Shown here piece by piece: positions 50,312-63,659 of a stretch of 64,000 bases of DNA. The DNA comes from a virus. The stretch's first letter is position 1, and each line of letters starts with the position of its first letter. A program made the translations under genes and the position numbers. Under the pieces are notes generated by a model. That model had not been told where the DNA came from. It did no database searches and saw only the letters and a list, made by a program, of their open reading frames with translations. The stretch covers positions 1-64,000 of IMG/VR virus record IMGVR_UViG_3300032331_000874; one strand, given 5' to 3'.

Positions 50312-50595
50312 GTAAACCCTTTCAGTATCTGCTCAAGCAGATCAATGTTGTCTTCGTTAATTACCGCAGCCACACCCTGCGCTGTGCGAATCTTTTCCAT
50401 CTCAGCTTCTTGCAACGGTGTTGGTTTGTTCTTACCAGCCTTACACTCGATAGCAATGAAACGCCCTTTGTAGCAACAGATAATGTCTGGCACACCAGAC
50501 TTACCGTATCCGCCTGTTACTGGGGAGAAGTAATACACGCCCCACTCTTTTAGTATCTTGTATAGCTTGGCTTTTACTTTAGCTTCAGGTGTCAT
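50308..50595 (-). CDS. VRR-NUC nuclease
   Basis: A 95-residue nuclease with GYGKSGVPDIICCYKGRFIA and IECKAGKNKPTPLQEAEM, where the conserved PD...(E)xK residues form the active site and TPLQ marks the VRR-NUC family, which acts on DNA junctions and flaps. It is a stand-alone small version typical of phages. It overlaps the sugar-reductase gene by 4 bp, linking the replication and carbohydrate blocks into one transcript. Confidence 0.9.
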   Translation of the reverse strand: MTPEAKVKAKLYKILKEWGVYYFSPVTGGYGKSGVPDIICCYKGRFIAIECKAGKNKPTPLQEAEMEKIRTAQGVAAVINEDNIDLLEQILKGFT

Positions 50596-51509
50596 GTGAG
50601 TCCTAACAAAGTATCTGCTGCGCGTTTAATGTTCTCCCACGAATCATATCGAGGTCTATAGCCAAACTGTTCTGCTGTTTGGTTGCGCGAATAATAGAAA
50701 GTCTTTAGTCCTGTGGGCGAAACAAACGTAGGATGAGTAACTTCAAACTTTAATCCGTAGGTACGCTTCATGTTCGCCAACAAATCATTCTTAGTAATCG
50801 GCTCTCGCGTGTAGCAATCCAACGCACCGTTAGCCGTAGGTTGAATAAGTATCCACGATAGTAGATGCCCTAAGTCCTCGGGTCCGATAAAGTCCCGCAC
50901 AAGGTTTGTTGTGTCCACAGGCATGACTTCATTATTCTTAACAGCGCGAATCATATTCATCGCCATAAAGTTCAAATTAATATCCTGTGTACCGCTGATG
51001 TAATTAAACACACGCACATCCACTATGTGTTTGTCTCGCAGCGTGCGATGCCTAACCTCTGCTTGATGCTTGGCTAACCCATAGTAGTGCTGTGGTTGTG
51101 GGCTAGTTGGAAACGTAACATTCGTACTCCACCCCGCAGGGTCAATATCAAAAACGTCACCGTACGCTGCACCACTACTAATGAAAATGTACTTGGTGTT
51201 AGGGCGGCGCAAGAAGCGCAACGCAAGCTCGTCATACTTGTAGGTGATAGGGAATATGTCAGCGCCCATCGCTGCTAACTTAACAGGGTCACCTACACCT
51301 ACGAAGTTAATTACCGCATCTACATACCACTGCGTATCAGGCAGCACATGGTAGCCAAACGATAGATAGTCACGCAGTCCTGCCGCTTGCATGAACGTAT
51401 CAACTTCTGCTGGCTTACGCGAGAACAACATCAGCGCGTGGTTATCCGCCAGATGCCGAATAAAATCCTTAGCCATCTGACTTGTCGCACCTAGTATTGC
51501 AATCCTCAT
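50592..51509 (-). CDS. NAD-dependent sugar reductase/epimerase (SDR)
   Basis: A 305-residue extended short-chain dehydrogenase. The Rossmann motif is IAILGATSQMAK (residues 3-14). Ser112 (FISSGAAYGD) and Tyr143-x3-Lys147 (YGLAK) give the catalytic triad. It resembles nucleotide-sugar 4-reductases/epimerases and is the last gene of the carbohydrate operon. Next to an E1-type dehydrase and a TPP enzyme, it may reduce the 4-keto group of a dideoxy or branched nucleotide sugar (a YerF/RfbD-like step). The substrate is inferred from context. Confidence 0.8.
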   Translation of the reverse strand: MRIAILGATSQMAKDFIRHLADNHALMLFSRKPAEVDTFMQAAGLRDYLSFGYHVLPDTQWYVDAVINFVGVGDPVKLAAMGADIFPITYKYDELALRFLRRPNTKYIFISSGAAYGDVFDIDPAGWSTNVTFPTSPQPQHYYGLAKHQAEVRHRTLRDKHIVDVRVFNYISGTQDINLNFMAMNMIRAVKNNEVMPVDTTNLVRDFIGPEDLGHLLSWILIQPTANGALDCYTREPITKNDLLANMKRTYGLKFEVTHPTFVSPTGLKTFYYSRNQTAEQFGYRPRYDSWENIKRAADTLLGLT

Positions 51510-52243
51510 GGCTTCACCACCATTTCTTCTTCTATAGTTTCAGGCGGCAAGAACGGTGTCATGTCATGCAGCGGCGCTTGCTTACCATCCTTGAACGACT
51601 GCGAAGGCAGGACTTGTTGGTCTGGTGTGCAACGGCAGTCAAATATTATTGAATCGTAGTCACAAAACAAAAGATCAAAGTCTCTATTCATGCCTGTCAC
51701 GTCTTCTATAAACATGTAGTTCACATCAAAAGCTGCTGCCACATCTCTGAAATTAGGAAAAAACAAACCTGTTTTATCGTTGACACCATGCACGCGTCCT
51801 TCAAAAAACTTTGACTGCGTGTTTTTGATGCTGAGGTAACCGGAGTTGTTTATCACCACAATCTTAATGTTTAAATAATGTTCGCTAATAACAGCAAGCT
51901 CTTGTATGTTGGACATAAAGCTACCATCACCTACGATACAAATAACTTGTTTAGCTCCAGCCTTAGCTACGCCTATAGCAGCAGGTAACGCCCAGCCCAT
52001 GTCACCTTGCGACTGACTCATCACAAGACGCTGTGTCCCTTTGAATTTGTACGCTTGCGGGACTGCATAGAAAGCTGTACCAGCGTCACACATAATGACA
52101 GCTTCATCATCACTGTGTTTGCTTATGGCATCAAGCACTGCATAAATATTCAGCCCGTTGCTGTCATCTAAATACTCTGGCTGCATGACAGGCCACTTGT
52201 ATTTCCAATGCTCACACTTGGCTAACCATTCATTTCTTGTCAT
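51506..52243 (-). CDS. TPP-dependent enzyme, C-terminal half (acetolactate-synthase-like)
   Basis: A 245-residue protein carrying only the pyrophosphate-binding domain of an acetolactate-synthase-type enzyme: AGTAFYAVPQAYKFKG, QSQGDMGWALPAAIGVAKA, and the TPP motif GDGSFMSNIQELAVIS (residues 105-120) closing with INNSGY (131-136). It begins inside the stop of the upstream gene (ATGA). The upstream gene encodes the missing halves, and together they reach about 580 residues, the length of a whole enzyme. It should work only as a complex with its partner. Confidence 0.85.
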   Translation of the reverse strand: MTRNEWLAKCEHWKYKWPVMQPEYLDDSNGLNIYAVLDAISKHSDDEAVIMCDAGTAFYAVPQAYKFKGTQRLVMSQSQGDMGWALPAAIGVAKAGAKQVICIVGDGSFMSNIQELAVISEHYLNIKIVVINNSGYLSIKNTQSKFFEGRVHGVNDKTGLFFPNFRDVAAAFDVNYMFIEDVTGMNRDFDLLFCDYDSIIFDCRCTPDQQVLPSQSFKDGKQAPLHDMTPFLPPETIEEEMVVKP

Positions 52244-53247
52244 AGCATCCCTCTAAAAAAACTATCGAGCGTTGTTTCTATTTTCCAATCTATTGGAATG
52301 ATGTCTTTGTGCAATTCATGGACTTCAATGTCTACGTATATCTTGTACGCCGTAGGATTAAACTGCGCAGGGTCGTAGCCCACAACAGGTGCGCCAAGCG
52401 ATGTGCCTAAGAACAGTAACAAGTCAGCGTTCTGCATAGCGAAGTTACCTGCACGATTACCACGCACACCGGGCGTGCCGATGTTTAGTGGGTGTGTGTA
52501 CGGTGCGTAGTCTTGCGCTCCATAGGTTGTGACGAACGGTATCTTGAACTGCTCAACAAACTTCATAAACCTTTCTACTTCCCCTGACATCCTGACACCT
52601 GTTCCAACCACAACCAACGGACGCTGTGCTTTATTCAACGTGTCAGTTAGTTTGTATTTCCCTGTAAACATCAGGTACTCACGCGCAACGTATCGCTGCT
52701 CGTACTCAGGCATCTGTGCAGTTTGTATGTCGCTAGGTATATCCAACCACACAGGACCCTTTCTACCGAACTGCGCCTCACCTATGGCTTCCTGCAACGC
52801 CATTGGCACTTCTTCTGGATAGCCTATGAACCGCGCTACCTTTGTCATGGTACGCATCGTTGCCACCACATCATGCTCTTGCGTACCATAGTGGCGTAAG
52901 TTTAAAAACTTAGTTTCTCTCAACCATGTCGTGCAGTTGTCGCGCTTAACATTGCCTGACAGAAAGAGAATAGGCACACCGTCCTGCCACGCGTTAAGCA
53001 CGCTAGTCGCACAGTTAGTACCACCGCACCCTGTTGTGGGGTTAACCACAGCAAGCTCACCTGTGTACTTAGCTTCTCCTATGGCTGCATGCCCTGCGCC
53101 TTGCTCGTTGTGATAGCAGATGTATTCGATCTTCCCATGCTTGATGAAGCCATCATTCAATCCTGCTGCACCACCACCCATCAAGCCATGCACACGCCGT
53201 ACACCTATGCTATACAGGTAGTCTGCTATCCAATCAGCTACTCTCAT
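52240..53247 (-). CDS. TPP-dependent enzyme, N-terminal half (acetolactate-synthase-like)
   Basis: A 335-residue protein holding the pyrimidine-binding domain, with the catalytic Glu48 in ICYHNEQGAGHAAIGEAK, PTTGCGGTNCATSVLNAW, and a central domain (PLVVVGTGVRMSGEVERFM, then LGTSLGAPVVG). It stops exactly where the interdomain linker would be and the downstream gene continues with the TPP domain in the -1 frame. A YerE-like role, transferring an acetaldehyde unit from pyruvate onto a 4-keto-dideoxy sugar, is a plausible reading of its place next to an E1 dehydrase. Confidence 0.85.
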   Translation of the reverse strand: MRVADWIADYLYSIGVRRVHGLMGGGAAGLNDGFIKHGKIEYICYHNEQGAGHAAIGEAKYTGELAVVNPTTGCGGTNCATSVLNAWQDGVPILFLSGNVKRDNCTTWLRETKFLNLRHYGTQEHDVVATMRTMTKVARFIGYPEEVPMALQEAIGEAQFGRKGPVWLDIPSDIQTAQMPEYEQRYVAREYLMFTGKYKLTDTLNKAQRPLVVVGTGVRMSGEVERFMKFVEQFKIPFVTTYGAQDYAPYTHPLNIGTPGVRGNRAGNFAMQNADLLLFLGTSLGAPVVGYDPAQFNPTAYKIYVDIEVHELHKDIIPIDWKIETTLDSFFRGML

Positions 53248-54479
53248 TAAAAATCTCCCATGAACGCAGACACTTTCTCTGCTACGTACTCCAACATTTC
53301 TTTAGTCAGCGCAGGTTGCACACCTAACCACAGCGTGTTGTTCATTACTTGGTCAGTCTTGCGCAAGTCGCCTTGCACTCGATAGTTCTGGCCTTTCAAG
53401 AACGGTTGCTTCGTTGCGTTGCCAGCAAACAGTAAGCGTGTGCCTATCTGGTTCTGGTTTAAGTAACGAACAAACGTGTCACGATCAAAGTCACAGCTAT
53501 CAGAGAGCGTGATAGGAAACCCAAACCATGAAGGCGTAGCTAAAGCATAAACGCCGGGGAACCATAGGTTAGTATGCTGTAGCTTGTCAGCTAAGAACTG
53601 GTAGTTATCCTGTCTTGCTTTAACAAACTCATGCACACGCTCAAGCTGCGCTACACCACACGCTGCTTGCATCTCTGTGATCTTTAAGTTGTAACCCACA
53701 TGACTGAACACATACTTGTGGTCATAGCCTTGTGGTAAGTCGCCATGCTTCTGATCGAACCGCATGCCACATGTGTTGTCACTACCCGGCGAACACCAGC
53801 AGTCACGCCCCCAATCACGGAACGATTCCACTAAACGTAGTAACTCCAGATCATTAACAATGACTGCCCCACCTTCGCCCATCGTAATGTGATGCGCGGG
53901 GAAAAACGATAATGTAGATAAGTGTCCAAATGTACCCACCTTTTGCCCTCGCCACTCAGCGCCCAACGCATCGCAGCAGTCCTCGATTAACCACAGGTTG
54001 TACTTCTTTGCGAACGCTACAACCACGTCAAGATTGAATGGGTTGCCCAACGTATGCGCAATGAAGATAGCCTTAGTCTTTTCAGTAACGGCACTCTCAA
54101 GCATACTCACATCGATGTTAAGCGTTGCATCTACATCCAAGAACACAGGCACACAACCGAACTGAATGATCGGGTTGATCGTAGTAGGGAACCCACACGC
54201 AACAGAGATAACCTCGTTCCCCCGCTTGATCGCTCTGTCTCCCAACTTAGGAGACGTAAGCGCAGAGAAGGCTACGAGGTTAGCTGAACTGCCTGAGTTG
54301 ACTGTACGCACAGCCTTGCACTTTAAGTATTCACCTAGCATGCGTTCAAACTGCGCGTTGTATGCACCCGCAGTCAACCAGCCCTTGTCAACGGCATCGT
54401 GCATGTAGTCTTTCTCACGATCTCCCACCACCTGCCCAGAGGCAGGGATGAAAGTCTTACCGGCTACGAAGTTACTCAT
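53247..54479 (-). CDS. rfbH: CDP-6-deoxy-4-hexulose-3-dehydrase (E1, RfbH/DdhC-type)
   Basis: A 410-residue PMP-dependent iron-sulphur enzyme of the aminotransferase fold that removes the 3-hydroxyl of a CDP-4-keto-6-deoxyhexose. The PLP lysine is replaced by His in SFFPAHHITMGEGGAV (His196/197), and the [2Fe-2S] ligands fit exactly C-X57-C-X1-C-X7-C: Cys169, Cys227, Cys229 and Cys237. Other family blocks are VNSGSSANLVAF and GYDHKYVFSHVGYNLKITE. It overlaps the TPP gene by one base. The partner reductase E3 and CDP-glucose 4,6-dehydratase are not in the window, so the host must supply them or they lie outside. Confidence 0.94.
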   Translation of the reverse strand: MSNFVAGKTFIPASGQVVGDREKDYMHDAVDKGWLTAGAYNAQFERMLGEYLKCKAVRTVNSGSSANLVAFSALTSPKLGDRAIKRGNEVISVACGFPTTINPIIQFGCVPVFLDVDATLNIDVSMLESAVTEKTKAIFIAHTLGNPFNLDVVVAFAKKYNLWLIEDCCDALGAEWRGQKVGTFGHLSTLSFFPAHHITMGEGGAVIVNDLELLRLVESFRDWGRDCWCSPGSDNTCGMRFDQKHGDLPQGYDHKYVFSHVGYNLKITEMQAACGVAQLERVHEFVKARQDNYQFLADKLQHTNLWFPGVYALATPSWFGFPITLSDSCDFDRDTFVRYLNQNQIGTRLLFAGNATKQPFLKGQNYRVQGDLRKTDQVMNNTLWLGVQPALTKEMLEYVAEKVSAFMGDF

Positions 54480-55270
54480 ACTGGCGTTTGGATAGGAGTG
54501 AAGCCGGGCGTTGCTTGTGCAACAGGTGCAGCCGGAGGCGGCATCAAGATGCCATCAAACATGTGAGTACCAACGTGCGCTAACTGCGCCCACGGTGCAG
54601 CCCATACAGTACCGCCGCATTTCTCACGCCACTCACGGCAGAAATGATAGTCCTCAGACAGCAAGCGTTCGCCAGTAGGCTCGATGCTAGTAGCAAAGAA
54701 CTCAGAGATACGCTCCTTACCAATGTTGCCACCCAAGTCATGTGTGTCGTTGATGTAGCTAGGTACGTGGTCGCGCAGTTGTTCAAACACCTCACGTTTA
54801 ATCAGCATGAAACCTGTGCCACCGTTCCATATCTCAACAGGCTGGTCAAGCTGCACCTGTGCTTCACCTGCGTAGCCAACTAAGTTAACAACGAACGAGC
54901 CAGAGTACTTACGCAGTTCATGTGGCGGCACACCAGCAAGCGCAGCTTTGTGAATCATCTCCCAATTAATCTCTTTCTTAGGATAGATACCGCAGATGAT
55001 TGGCTTGTCTGCCAACATCATAGGCAGTACGTCCGCAGGGTTGAAACGAATGTCAGCGTCAATGAACATCAGGTGCGTGAAGTCAGACTTCAAGAAGCCA
55101 TGTGCCAACGCATTACGCGCACGCTGAATCAACGACTCGTTAAACAGGAACGACATAGCTACGTCAATCTTATTGTCACGCAACGTATTCTGTAATGTCA
55201 TCAGCGACTGCGCGAAGTAACCAAAGCATTGGCCGCCGTACATTGGTGTTGCTATAAAAACTTTTGCCAT
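54476..55270 (-). CDS. GT-A type glycosyltransferase
   Basis: A 264-residue protein with the metal-binding DxD motif in FIDADIRFNPADVL (Asp71, Asp73), an N-terminal VFIATPMYGG nucleotide-binding strand, and NGGTGFMLIKREVFEQL, SEDYHFCREWREKCG blocks that close the acceptor side in this fold. The C-terminal 25 residues are Pro/Ala-rich and probably disordered. It overlaps the rfbH gene by 4 bp. The donor sugar is unknown; it may act on the dideoxy or branched product. Confidence 0.85.
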   Translation of the reverse strand: MAKVFIATPMYGGQCFGYFAQSLMTLQNTLRDNKIDVAMSFLFNESLIQRARNALAHGFLKSDFTHLMFIDADIRFNPADVLPMMLADKPIICGIYPKKEINWEMIHKAALAGVPPHELRKYSGSFVVNLVGYAGEAQVQLDQPVEIWNGGTGFMLIKREVFEQLRDHVPSYINDTHDLGGNIGKERISEFFATSIEPTGERLLSEDYHFCREWREKCGGTVWAAPWAQLAHVGTHMFDGILMPPPAAPVAQATPGFTPIQTPV

Positions 55271-55279
55271 TCCTAACTC

Positions 55280-56011
55280 CTAGTATTTAAAGATAGATTT
55301 CTGTAGCCACGGGAATGTAGCTCCAAACTTGTACTGCATATATTCATTGTTACCTAAGAACGTCTCCTTGCTCATGCCTCCTGACCCATCTTTGGATAAT
55401 CGGTAATTAACTGAGTGCTTGCCTGTCGTACCTGTTGATAGCTTTGCGTTCATCAATGCGCGTTGAAAGTTTCTATCCGATACAACAGGTACGTACCATG
55501 CGTGGCTGTGCTGCCTAGCTATCGCTGTACGTACTGCGTAGCATGAGTTGTCAACGAGGTAGTGCCCTGTTGCGTTAGGCTGCATGCCTAGTGACTCGCA
55601 GTTGTCATCACAAATAAAGTTGCCATCAGCGTCAACGATCTTTCTAAAGCTATACGCCCACGCTAGGCTGTGTTCTTCTATCAACGCAACCAAACCCTCA
55701 ATGTGGTCAGGCTCGTACCAGTTGTCATCGTCAAGGTAGAAGATCACATCCTCGTCAACAACAAATGGAGCCATAGCAAAAACGGGAGCCATACCGTAGC
55801 CATCGCCGCCGTTAGCATTAGGTAGATAAACACCTTCCACATAGGGGTAGTCCTCTAATAGTATGTCCACTTTTACGTGGTGCGGTTGACCATGAGCAAA
55901 CACGTAGTGCCTTACTTTGCCTTTGTACGTTTGCTTACGTACACTCTCAAGTGCTTGGCATATCGTGTTTCTGCCTTGCGTGCTAGTTATTACGGCTACG
56001 GATAAGCTCAT
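55280..56011 (-). CDS. Family 2-like glycosyltransferase
   Basis: A 243-residue inverting-type glycosyltransferase. It starts SLSVAVITSTQGRNTICQAL with SVRKQTYKGK, as in GT2 enzymes, and has FYLDDDNWYEPDHIEGLV, the DxD region (Asp94-96). Later blocks include NSCYAVRTAIARQ and VSDRNFQRALM. It is separated from the downstream GT gene by 9 bp and overlaps the upstream fucosyltransferase gene by 4 bp. Confidence 0.85.
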   Translation of the reverse strand: MSLSVAVITSTQGRNTICQALESVRKQTYKGKVRHYVFAHGQPHHVKVDILLEDYPYVEGVYLPNANGGDGYGMAPVFAMAPFVVDEDVIFYLDDDNWYEPDHIEGLVALIEEHSLAWAYSFRKIVDADGNFICDDNCESLGMQPNATGHYLVDNSCYAVRTAIARQHSHAWYVPVVSDRNFQRALMNAKLSTGTTGKHSVNYRLSKDGSGGMSKETFLGNNEYMQYKFGATFPWLQKSIFKY

Positions 56012-56949
56012 GCTGCCACCATATAGTTAAGTAGTGTGTCAACGAAGTGCGCGTTGTAAAACTGCTCTGCGTCCGGTGAAGTAATAAACTTTCGTATGGC
56101 TACGAGGTAGTCCATGTACTCGTAGCTAGGCATGTTAACTAAGTACTCGTATAGTTCCTCGTACGTGTGGAAATCATTAACGTCAACAAAACACTCAGGC
56201 GGTATGTGGTCACGCACGTTATGCGCACCCAAGTACACAGGCACAACGCCCACCATGAAACAATCCGTTAGCTTCTCGCTGATGTAGCCGTACGAATGAC
56301 AGTTCTCATACGCTAAACAGAACCGATAGTTAGCTAGCGTCTTTAGCTTGTCATTGGTTGCGCCCTTGTACGTGGAGAAGTTATGCCCCTGCCAGTTGCG
56401 TCCCCACAAATCAAAGTCCCTCGGCGCTTGCGCTGTAAAAAATCGAATAGCTTCCACACGCTTGTGATATATGCTGAGTGGGTGTGAGCTTTGCTTGTAC
56501 GTATTCATCAAACACATCAGCTTGCGCTTGTGATAGTTCGTAAACACCTCGTCAGGCGTAGGCATGTACGCGTCTTGCAAGTTAGTCGTGAAGTTAGACT
56601 TGATGAACTTGTTGCCATCGACTAAGCGGTCGTCCCACGTAAAGACCTTCTCGCAACTATCAAGGAAGTCCTTGTCGTAGTTGTTAGGGATGATGCTGTC
56701 TGGTTCGTACAGCACAGCGATAGTGCGTGGTGCTTTAGCTTTGATGGTTGTCGGTCTGTCCAACAGGATAAGCAGGTCACCCTCGTCGCGTTGGTCAGGC
56801 GTAAACATTTCTATACCGCGCTCTTTCGCAGCCGCATACAGATCGTTCCACGGACGCAGCAAGCCAGCCCCGATGTCGCTGTCAGGGTTGGTGAACAGGT
56901 AGCCGTTGGTCGTGATGAAATCGTAATGGTTCTGGACTATGACTCTCAT
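56008..56949 (-). CDS. Fucosyltransferase-like (GT10) protein
   Basis: A 313-residue protein with the GT10 C-terminal signature at residues 208-241: YRFCLAYENCHSYGYISEKL then TDCFMVGVVPVYLGAHNV, the nucleotide-binding region of alpha-1,3-fucosyltransferases. The N-terminal half (TPDQRDEGDLLILLDRPTTI) supplies the acceptor domain. GT10 enzymes use GDP-fucose, but no GDP-fucose synthesis gene is visible in the window. It overlaps both neighbours by 4 bp. Confidence 0.85.
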   Translation of the reverse strand: MRVIVQNHYDFITTNGYLFTNPDSDIGAGLLRPWNDLYAAAKERGIEMFTPDQRDEGDLLILLDRPTTIKAKAPRTIAVLYEPDSIIPNNYDKDFLDSCEKVFTWDDRLVDGNKFIKSNFTTNLQDAYMPTPDEVFTNYHKRKLMCLMNTYKQSSHPLSIYHKRVEAIRFFTAQAPRDFDLWGRNWQGHNFSTYKGATNDKLKTLANYRFCLAYENCHSYGYISEKLTDCFMVGVVPVYLGAHNVRDHIPPECFVDVNDFHTYEELYEYLVNMPSYEYMDYLVAIRKFITSPDAEQFYNAHFVDTLLNYMVAA

Positions 56950-61026: not shown

Positions 61027-62025
61027 TTACATAAGTGTTGTGCTGTCGTGGTTGCCAGACTCGAACAGATCGAATATCCACTCGGCTGCCTCGTCTGGGT
61101 ATGCGTTAACCATGTCCCACATCTCGCCCTCATGCTTCTCACCGAACGATTGCTCAAGCAGGAACGCTGCTTTGTTGGGAGCCATCAACACCCAGTCATA
61201 CAACGCTTTGATGCCACGCTTGTGACAGTTGTGCGCAGCGCGTGTGATCTTGGTGATGTTTAACTTCTTGCCGAACGATGAAACATCAGAGTCATAGATT
61301 GCATAGTCCTCGAACTCGGCATACTCGTCATCGTAGTCACCGAACGCAGCACCGCTTGCTAGACTCTTGCTGCTGTGCTTGGTTGAACCCTTGATGTTGT
61401 AGCCGTAGCTGTCGTTCATACCCCACCCGCCGGTGTAATACTTGTTGACGTTGTTCTTGCGACCATGACCATGCAAGTGTGATGACCACGCATACGTGTT
61501 GGATAACCACGCGCCCTCATGTTCGACGCCTGCGTCATAGTTAAGCACGACACTCTCACCGCTGCTGTGCATGAAAGCAAACTTGTTGCTGTGACCGATC
61601 ATGTCTTCGAGGTACGTCTGGTAGTCAGGGTCAAAGAGCAGCGCAGGGTTAGCTTCCAACGCAGGGCGCAGGATGAACTTGATGAAGTGCCATGTGTCGG
61701 ACTTGGTTTTATCTACTGGGTTGCCCATCGACAGGATGCCGTTGTGCGCCATCCATATCTCGTCAGTTACTTTGTATGGATGACAGTTCTCCATGTCGAT
61801 GTCGCCGTGGGTTTTCATACGATAGTGAATGATGCACTCGCGTCCCTTCAATGCGTCTTTGTACAGCGCATTAATTTCCTGGGGTTTGCCTAGTGTCTTA
61901 ACGACTACGAGCTTGCCACCCTCTGCATACATAGCACCGAAACCGTCAGAGTTGTGTGCATAAAAGTCGTTGAGCAATTCGTCGCTGAATGATACGTTTG
62001 ATGGATGATGAATAAGAATACACAT
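61027..62025 (-). CDS. Class II glutamine amidotransferase
   Basis: A 332-residue Ntn-type hydrolase that releases ammonia from glutamine. The N-terminal Cys2 nucleophile follows the initiator Met (MCILIHHPSN). The family motifs are HNSDGFGAMY (residues 24-33), IIHYRMKTHGD (65-75) and WMAHNGILSMGNP (91-103). The C-terminal half is a less conserved Tyr/Asp/Gly-rich region (about 180-260) of unknown fold. It is 26 bp downstream of the amidoligase gene, suggesting ammonia or amide transfer in the same pathway. Confidence 0.93.
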   Translation of the reverse strand: MCILIHHPSNVSFSDELLNDFYAHNSDGFGAMYAEGGKLVVVKTLGKPQEINALYKDALKGRECIIHYRMKTHGDIDMENCHPYKVTDEIWMAHNGILSMGNPVDKTKSDTWHFIKFILRPALEANPALLFDPDYQTYLEDMIGHSNKFAFMHSSGESVVLNYDAGVEHEGAWLSNTYAWSSHLHGHGRKNNVNKYYTGGWGMNDSYGYNIKGSTKHSSKSLASGAAFGDYDDEYAEFEDYAIYDSDVSSFGKKLNITKITRAAHNCHKRGIKALYDWVLMAPNKAAFLLEQSFGEKHEGEMWDMVNAYPDEAAEWIFDLFESGNHDSTTLM

Positions 62026-62051
62026 AGTTAGTTCTCCTTTAAGTGGTTGGA

Positions 62052-63659
62052 TTACGACATGATGCCTTGCAGTTTGAGATGCTTGCGTAAATGCTTTGTC
62101 TCGCTGCGTTGTGATGATGAATCGATGAAGTCTAAGAAGCGTGGTGTTGATAGATGAAACCCTGCCGGTGAGGCTGGCATGGTGAAGTTGACTACTGCAT
62201 TAGCAAACTCGATAGCAGACAACAGCGTGTCATACACAAGCGTACCCTTGAAGATACGAAACTCGACAGTCTGATCGTTGGTAATGTTCAATGCATCGCG
62301 GCGTTCAACGTCATACTTGTGTGCGGTAGACAAACGCTTACGTGCTATGCGTGCATAGTTGACGTTGTACCTACGTGCTACTGCTTTGACTAGCTCATGG
62401 TTGTCAGGATGATTCAAGAAGACATTCATCTTGTTAAGCTGCATGACGTGCATATTCTTACGACTGACATGCACATGCAGACCACACGTTGACGTGTCAT
62501 GCGAACGCATACCACGCGTCAAGTCACGATCATTTAACGCAGACCATAACTCGTAATGACTGTCTAAGCCCATCGGATTAGTGATGATCTCAAAGCCATG
62601 CGTCAATGAACCGTCAGCCTCGAAGTACACACGCTTGCCTACCTCACCATCGTTGAGCTTGGCGTTCAATACTTCAACGTGGTCATCGATGCTGCCATCC
62701 TTGACCTCGACCTCAAGCTCTACGCCCATGAAGCGGTCGTTGCGTTGTGTCCATACTGAATGAAGGAAGGGTTGCTTACCGACACGCGAACGATTGTGAT
62801 AGCTGCCAAGTAACTGCGGCTTTCTGCCCTCGTATTCGTAATGAATGTAAGCATCCTCGTCATCATCCCAATGGAAATCATCGTCATCCTCGTGGACATA
62901 CACCTCGTCACCGTCTCGGTCTAACGCCCAACGACCGCTGTCTGTGTACACGTATTCGCTGTAGTGTTCCGAGTAGCGATAGTTGTTGTCGATACATGAG
63001 TCGCACACGTTGTCGGTGCTATCGTACGGCGTACGCATCAAGTCCTCATGTGCGTAGTTGCAGCAGTCAGAGCAAGAGTGGTAACCGTTGCTTTGCAATA
63101 TCTCCTCGACCTCATCGCGGTCGTTCTCTGCGTGGTTGACTAAAATGGTAGCTATCTCGCTGCGTTTGTTGCGTGATAAGGCGCTGTTGCTCAAGTCACC
63201 GCCTTGTATGTGCCACACCGTTGTGAGTAGACCGTATCCCGTGTTCTCTGCGATCTCATCAAGCGGCTGCCGCATTACGCCGTTCAATAGTTTACGCATG
63301 ACAGAGTGGAGCGCTTGTTCTACTGTGTTGCCGTACCGCAGCTCGCTTATCTGCACCCTGATACGAATAGTCATGGGTTGAAATACCAAGTTAACGAAGG
63401 CATACGCTGCGCTCTTGCTGCCGAAGTCGCCACGCTCAACAAGTCTGGCTACTGCATTGAAGAACGCCTCAAGTCTGTCGCGTGCTGCTAAACGTACGTC
63501 TTCTGGATAGACTTGGCGTGGGTCGGGGTTGTCGTGCATGAGCGCATAGGTAGAGGTCATAACTACCAGTAGCGCGTGTTCCAAGCGGTTAATGTAGCCG
63601 CTTTCTGGTTGGGGTTGAGCTACAGTAAAAAAGTCATACTGTGACGATGATTGTGTCAT
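62052..63659 (-). CDS. Amidoligase family protein
   Basis: A 535-residue protein. The C-terminal half has the amidoligase (glutamine-synthetase-like fold) pattern: RFMGVELEVEV (309-319), YFEADGSLTHGFEIITNPMG (345-364), CGLHVHVSRKNM (392-403) and TVEFRIFKGTL (464-474). These carry the Glu, His and Arg expected to bind ATP and metal. The middle (195-275) has a Cys cluster (CSDCCNYAHE, VCDSCIDNN) that may bind zinc, followed by an acidic segment. The family forms amide bonds on peptides or cell-wall components. Its substrate is unknown. Confidence 0.88.
   Translation of the reverse strand: MTQSSSQYDFFTVAQPQPESGYINRLEHALLVVMTSTYALMHDNPDPRQVYPEDVRLAARDRLEAFFNAVARLVERGDFGSKSAAYAFVNLVFQPMTIRIRVQISELRYGNTVEQALHSVMRKLLNGVMRQPLDEIAENTGYGLLTTVWHIQGGDLSNSALSRNKRSEIATILVNHAENDRDEVEEILQSNGYHSCSDCCNYAHEDLMRTPYDSTDNVCDSCIDNNYRYSEHYSEYVYTDSGRWALDRDGDEVYVHEDDDDFHWDDDEDAYIHYEYEGRKPQLLGSYHNRSRVGKQPFLHSVWTQRNDRFMGVELEVEVKDGSIDDHVEVLNAKLNDGEVGKRVYFEADGSLTHGFEIITNPMGLDSHYELWSALNDRDLTRGMRSHDTSTCGLHVHVSRKNMHVMQLNKMNVFLNHPDNHELVKAVARRYNVNYARIARKRLSTAHKYDVERRDALNITNDQTVEFRIFKGTLVYDTLLSAIEFANAVVNFTMPASPAGFHLSTPRFLDFIDSSSQRSETKHLRKHLKLQGIMS

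Follow-up and report, generated by a model that had tools for sequence, protein, structure and literature searches.

A seven-gene cassette found in podoviruses of the RIO-1, phiEco32, LUZ24 and phiM6 type holds an Amidoligase_2 protein and one or more class II glutamine amidotransferases (GATases), together with an ATP-grasp protein, a GGCT, further ligases and a C26 peptidase. A shorter arrangement is present in mycobacteriophage Marvin, whose gp105 and gp106 (PHROG 22302 and 25883) are an adjacent amidoligase and GATase, and the same gene pair in the same order occurs in the OM43 phages MEP401 and MEP402 and in the Manatee Spring podovirus MW202733. The two-gene arrangement is thus already known, and in the OM43 phages it has been published as AMGs encoding an amidoligase (PF12224) and a GATase (PF13522) (PMC10580990). 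The initial annotation of the DNA analysed here had described such enzymes as little studied in phages. This statement stands only in a weaker form, since members from phiEco32, LUZ24 and RIO-1 podoviruses, Marvin and the OM43 phages are published and matches to the amidoligase motifs number in the hundreds among metagenomic viral contigs; no characterised member of the amidoligase-GATase pair was found in the literature searched.

Gene layout and the two predicted enzymes

The sequence analysed (the window) comprises bases 1-64000 of a 64,045-base IMG/VR virus record. The TerL it encodes is ~46-52% identical to its nearest relatives, which come from phages infecting Pelagibacter, cyanobacteria and Gammaproteobacteria and measuring 57-65 kb. 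The amidoligase and GATase genes lie at the right end of the window, the GATase 26 nt downstream of the amidoligase, each preceded by an AAGGAG-type ribosome-binding site (Table 1). Their positions, adjacency and shared strand are exactly as initially annotated. The order, amidoligase and then class II GATase on one strand, is that of the two-gene module of Marvin and the OM43 phages, and judging from this layout the genes are an operon-like pair.

Table 1. Features of the window discussed in the text
Feature	Position	Strand	Evidence
Amidoligase gene, 535 aa	62052-63659	(-)	intact ORF, Pfam Amidoligase_2, PHROG 16683, AF2, Foldseek
Segment for amidoligase aa 193-290: predicted zinc-ribbon-like unit and acidic beta-hairpins	62790-63083	(-)	conservation, pLDDT, composition
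Intergenic gap, 26 nt, with GATase ribosome-binding site AAAGGAGAAC	62026-62051	(-)	sequence
Class II GATase gene, 332 aa	61027-62025	(-)	intact ORF, Pfam GATase_4, AF2, Foldseek
Three glycosyltransferase-like genes: GT10 fucosyltransferase-type, GT2, weak Anp1-like	54476-56949	(-)	
Phage-encoded sugar pathway, whole	50592-54479	(-)	
RfbH-type CDP-4-keto-6-deoxyglucose 3-dehydratase	53247-54479	(-)	640.7 bits, cut-off 423
Acetolactate-synthase-like TPP enzyme, two genes overlapping by 4 nt	52240-53247 and 51506-52243	(-)	
NAD epimerase/reductase	50592-51509	(-)	

The amidoligase is a member of Pfam Amidoligase_2 (PF12224, the GS/GCS-like COOH-NH2 ligases; E = 5.7e-7, 30.1 bits, curated cut-off 22) and matches PHROG 16683 (2.8e-30). 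The full set of eight residues E314, E316, E357, H395, H397, R430, E466 and R468 is kept in 74 of 75 aligned relatives. Using its AlphaFold2 model (mean pLDDT 89.3), Foldseek retrieved glutamine synthetase (GS; 2.9e-4, probability 1.00, low TM-score) as well as gamma-glutamylmethylamide synthetase (GMAS), the Pup ligase PafA, Dop and YbdK, while a sequence search of the PDB gave no useful match. PafA, GMAS and YbdK are GS-fold carboxylate-amine ligases, and Dop is a depupylase relative. The protein is therefore predicted to combine a GS-type fold with a Glu/His/Arg active site. The fold matches of both members of the pair are significant, yet their TM-scores are low (0.2-0.5), so that for the amidoligase the GS fold class is supported and the exact subfamily is not.

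The GATase matches Pfam GATase_4 (E = 1e-5, 25 bits, cut-off 23) and PHROG 25883 (5.6e-7), and has all the marks of a class II (Ntn) GATase: a Cys after the initiator Met, the Arg, the Asp and the oxyanion Asn-Gly. This set (Cys2, Arg69, Asn95-Gly96 and Asp110), which is the glutamine-hydrolysing set of GlmS-like enzymes, is complete in 66 of 67 aligned relatives. The AlphaFold2 model (mean pLDDT 82) predicts an Ntn glutaminase domain (residues 1-185), a disordered linker (~189-246) and a C-terminal helical domain (~257-322); Foldseek matches it to the glutaminase domain of GlmS (E = 9.4e-7), in agreement with an Ntn glutaminase fold, and to the ergothioneine hydrolase EgtC (3e-5), its second-best structural match. 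The near-invariance of the residue sets agrees with the earlier claim that both proteins keep their active-site motifs and makes both look like active enzymes. Profiles, conserved residues and predicted folds likewise bear out that phages pair a GS-fold amidoligase with a class II GATase.

The Cys-rich, acidic region of the amidoligase had been taken for an unexplained insertion. It is instead a separate module (~aa 193-290), predicted to be folded, that follows a helical N-terminal region (1-190) and lies N-terminal to the GS-fold catalytic domain (~300-530). The motif C196xxC199...C219xxC222 is succeeded by short acidic strands modelled as beta-hairpins, with pLDDT values of ~91-97 across most of the module. 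C199, C219 and C222 occur in all 75 relatives and C196 in 63 of 75, and a Ruminococcus homologue gives LIM/Zn-ribbon Pfam matches at this place. The region is best described as a predicted zinc-ribbon-like recognition module that is conserved family-wide. Its acidic composition (pI 4.2, with 26 Asp/Glu and 7 Lys/Arg among 101 residues) argues against nucleic-acid binding.

Elsewhere in the window, four genes on the same strand make up a phage-encoded sugar pathway whose gene set matches that for CDP-yersiniose A, a dideoxy sugar with a branched chain; such a pathway is unusual for a phage. The glycosyltransferase-like genes directly upstream suggest that this sugar is transferred to a target on the envelope or the virion.

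Pairing, co-inheritance and genomic contexts

Viral contigs and GTDB genomes were scanned with amidoligase motifs, and the best 80 of ~580 viral and the best 80 of ~543 bacterial loci were examined. The GATase gene was next on the same strand in 80 of 80 viral loci (median gap 20 nt) and in 77 of 80 bacterial loci, with a seed alignment that came largely from loci already having both genes and with GATase presence not used as a selection criterion. Two of the three remaining bacterial loci stop at a contig edge and one truly lacks the gene, which gives 77 of 78 for those with enough downstream sequence; in that sole exception (L176:5482-6660) a 677-aa ORF is next. The initial annotation had made its proposal depend on the two genes co-occurring in relatives, and at these frequencies they do. 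No natural amidoligase-GATase fusion was noticed among the examined loci. In 26 non-redundant, terminase-bearing genomes the distance matrices of amidoligase and GATase correlate with r = 0.91, against 0.73 and 0.74 for the correlation of the two genes with TerL in the same genomes, which means that the pair tends to be passed on as one unit.

Clustering of the neighbours in the phage loci revealed no third gene conserved beside the pair. A dedicated peptide substrate gene was considered for the phages and rejected, the up- and downstream neighbours varying between loci; the 65-aa ORF upstream of the pair in the window recurs in close relatives only. Membership in a cassette of the seven-gene phiEco32/RIO-1 type was ruled out, given that GGCT and the phiM6-type ATP-grasp are absent in 21 genomes, namely the window record and 20 relatives (18 viral records of 51-65 kb, MW202733 and MEP402). 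The positive controls of this search, phiM6 and StenR_269, were both positive; the phiM6 protein served as ATP-grasp query, as Pfam R2K_3 gave no signal even in the phiM6 control. The phiM6 amidoligase does not match the HMM of the window family at E 1e-3, and PADLOC returned no match to a known anti-phage defence model. A related amidoligase without a GATase was observed in Clostridioides phage AR1086-1, as well as in plasmid records that match it (L014:66-6860); there the adjacent RlaP nucleotidyltransferase and the KptA RNA 2'-phosphotransferase upstream suggest an RNA-repair neighbourhood.

Among the best 80 of ~543 bacterial matches the majority lie in Ruminococcus flavefaciens and relatives, with several copies per genome. 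The gene order in these elements is DUF960, amidoligase, small hydrophobic protein, GATase and a serine recombinase or tyrosine integrase, and on the other side there is often a MobA-type relaxase with a small companion gene. For the 46 loci with enough flank, a relaxase was found in 24, a recombinase in 34 and both in 21. The loci (L100-L179, e.g. L145:4149-8482 and L149:2903-8381) are putative copies of integrative mobilizable elements. The small proteins encoded between the genes (47-65 aa; L102-L179) have a single hydrophobic stretch, in most cases together with an acidic C-terminus, and fall into at least two sequence types; a membrane anchor, a substrate peptide or an immunity partner are possible roles. 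The presence of the pair on these elements implies that it serves mobile elements generally and not one phage lifestyle.

Proposed function and alternative explanations

A glutaminase alone would be wasteful, and the ligase is always accompanied by one and by nothing else; the pair is hence most simply read as a glutamine-dependent amidoligase. The two proteins very probably work together, and with somewhat better than even confidence we propose that they are the two subunits of one such enzyme, acting on a macromolecular carboxylate to the benefit of the mobile element. The GATase, with its N-terminal Cys as nucleophile after Met removal, would split glutamine and pass ammonia to the amidoligase, which would spend ATP in converting a carboxylate into an acyl phosphate and then an amide. 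Labour would be divided by analogy with GlmS, AsnB and CarAB, the difference being a GS-fold synthetase that forms a chain of its own. The zinc-ribbon/acidic beta module would pick the substrate, for which a protein or cell-envelope precursor seems likelier than a free metabolite; conservation of the module favours a macromolecular target, and in the Ruminococcus elements the small hydrophobic protein favours a membrane-linked one. The modification could help the mobile element, for example, via an altered host surface or host protein. Rather unlikely, in our estimate, is the more specific picture of a glutamine-fed, zinc-module-guided two-subunit enzyme that amidates proteins or peptides and is portable cargo of phages and Ruminococcus elements, reprogramming or protecting the host.

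The match of EgtC to the GATase, nearly as good as that of GlmS, speaks against the supply of ammonia, considering that EgtC takes off a gamma-glutamyl group instead. The amidoligase might accordingly join the gamma-carboxyl of glutamate to an amine and the Ntn hydrolase later remove it, in a gamma-glutamyl cycle. Such attaching and removing pairs are EgtA/EgtC in ergothioneine synthesis and PuuA/PuuD in putrescine degradation, and the occurrence of YbdK/GCS-type and GMAS ligases among the fold matches of the amidoligase, the rank of EgtC among those of the GATase, and the GGCT and C26 gamma-glutamyl hydrolases of related phage clusters are all consistent with such a cycle. Protection and deprotection require an intermediate step, however, and the phage loci have neither a conserved third gene nor, in the 21 genomes, GGCT. 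With no ATP-grasp either, the pair probably does a complete step alone, which fits ammonia-coupled amidation better than a ligase and a hydrolase working against each other, and we consider a gamma-glutamyl cycle unlikely. Hypermodification of nucleotides or DNA, with an amide placed on a modified base by analogy with Gat-QueC for archaeosine-type bases, appears highly improbable. Class II GATases are known from DNA-modification pathways of phages, but the strongly acidic zinc module is unlike a nucleic-acid binder and the annotated parts hold no 7-deazaguanine or hydroxymethyl-pyrimidine genes; a link to 7-deazaguanine DNA modification was ruled out, as the genome lacks a QueC homologue.

GATases are already used in wall amidation, LtsA/AsnB amidating meso-DAP via a class II GATase domain and MurT/GatD amidating D-Glu via a class I GATase. 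The carboxylate could belong to a peptidoglycan precursor, its amidation altering receptors or lysis by competitor phages and leading to superinfection exclusion. This reading narrows the amidoligase explanation given above to one kind of substrate, so that the confidences overlap, and we regard it as possible but doubtful. It has been put forward for the phiEco32, RIO-1 and OM43 phages (Iyer et al., 2009, cited by PMC10580990 and PMC11318856) and repeated since (PMC5498523), and the Ruminococcus elements, with a small hydrophobic protein next to the enzymes, would suit it. Peptidoglycan genes, however, are not linked to the pair, Mur-type ligases do not feature a zinc-ribbon module, and the pair spans different phage groups and Firmicutes elements with different walls. 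For the glutamine-dependent amidoligase that we prefer, near-perfect pairing and mapped domains give a vague annotation the shape of a definite two-protein enzyme amenable to co-expression. GATase C2, amidoligase E314/E316/H395/H397/R468 and the predicted zinc cysteines 196/199/219/222 offer residues with which to probe amidation and superinfection exclusion.

Comparison with known systems

To the described systems the present analysis adds a quantified obligate pairing, a separation from the seven-gene form, an explanation of the Cys-rich region and a mobilizable-element form, the pair being widespread in aquatic phages and also cargo of gut and rumen mobilizable elements. Our literature search found no paper describing the pair on Ruminococcus mobilizable elements, and its presence there with a small putative membrane protein is new as far as searched. 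The amidoligases of the OM43 phages and MW202733, which belong to different phage groups, share 23-30% identity with that of the window, and in the alignment MEP402 has no zinc-ribbon cysteines at the corresponding position. Marvin gp105 resembles the window amidoligase in its Cys-rich, zinc-ribbon-like N-terminus, but its identity to the window protein is low and it has no long helical N-terminus, the zinc unit lying at the extreme N-terminus. Marvin gp106 is a class II GATase with an MC N-terminus and RWATHG and HNG motifs, as in the window family, and carries a Cys-rich tail of its own, unlike the window GATase.

The window GATase has the fold and the catalytic Cys/Arg/Asn-Gly/Asp in common with the GlmS glutaminase domain and EgtC, as far as its predicted structure indicates; in contrast to GlmS it has no isomerase domain, and its putative synthetase partner is a separate GS-fold protein. 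The amidoligase shares the predicted fold of its catalytic region with glutamine synthetase, GMAS, PafA, Dop and YbdK at ~9-15% identity, and differs from these GS-fold ligases in its additional Zn/beta and helical N-terminal modules and its separate GATase partner.
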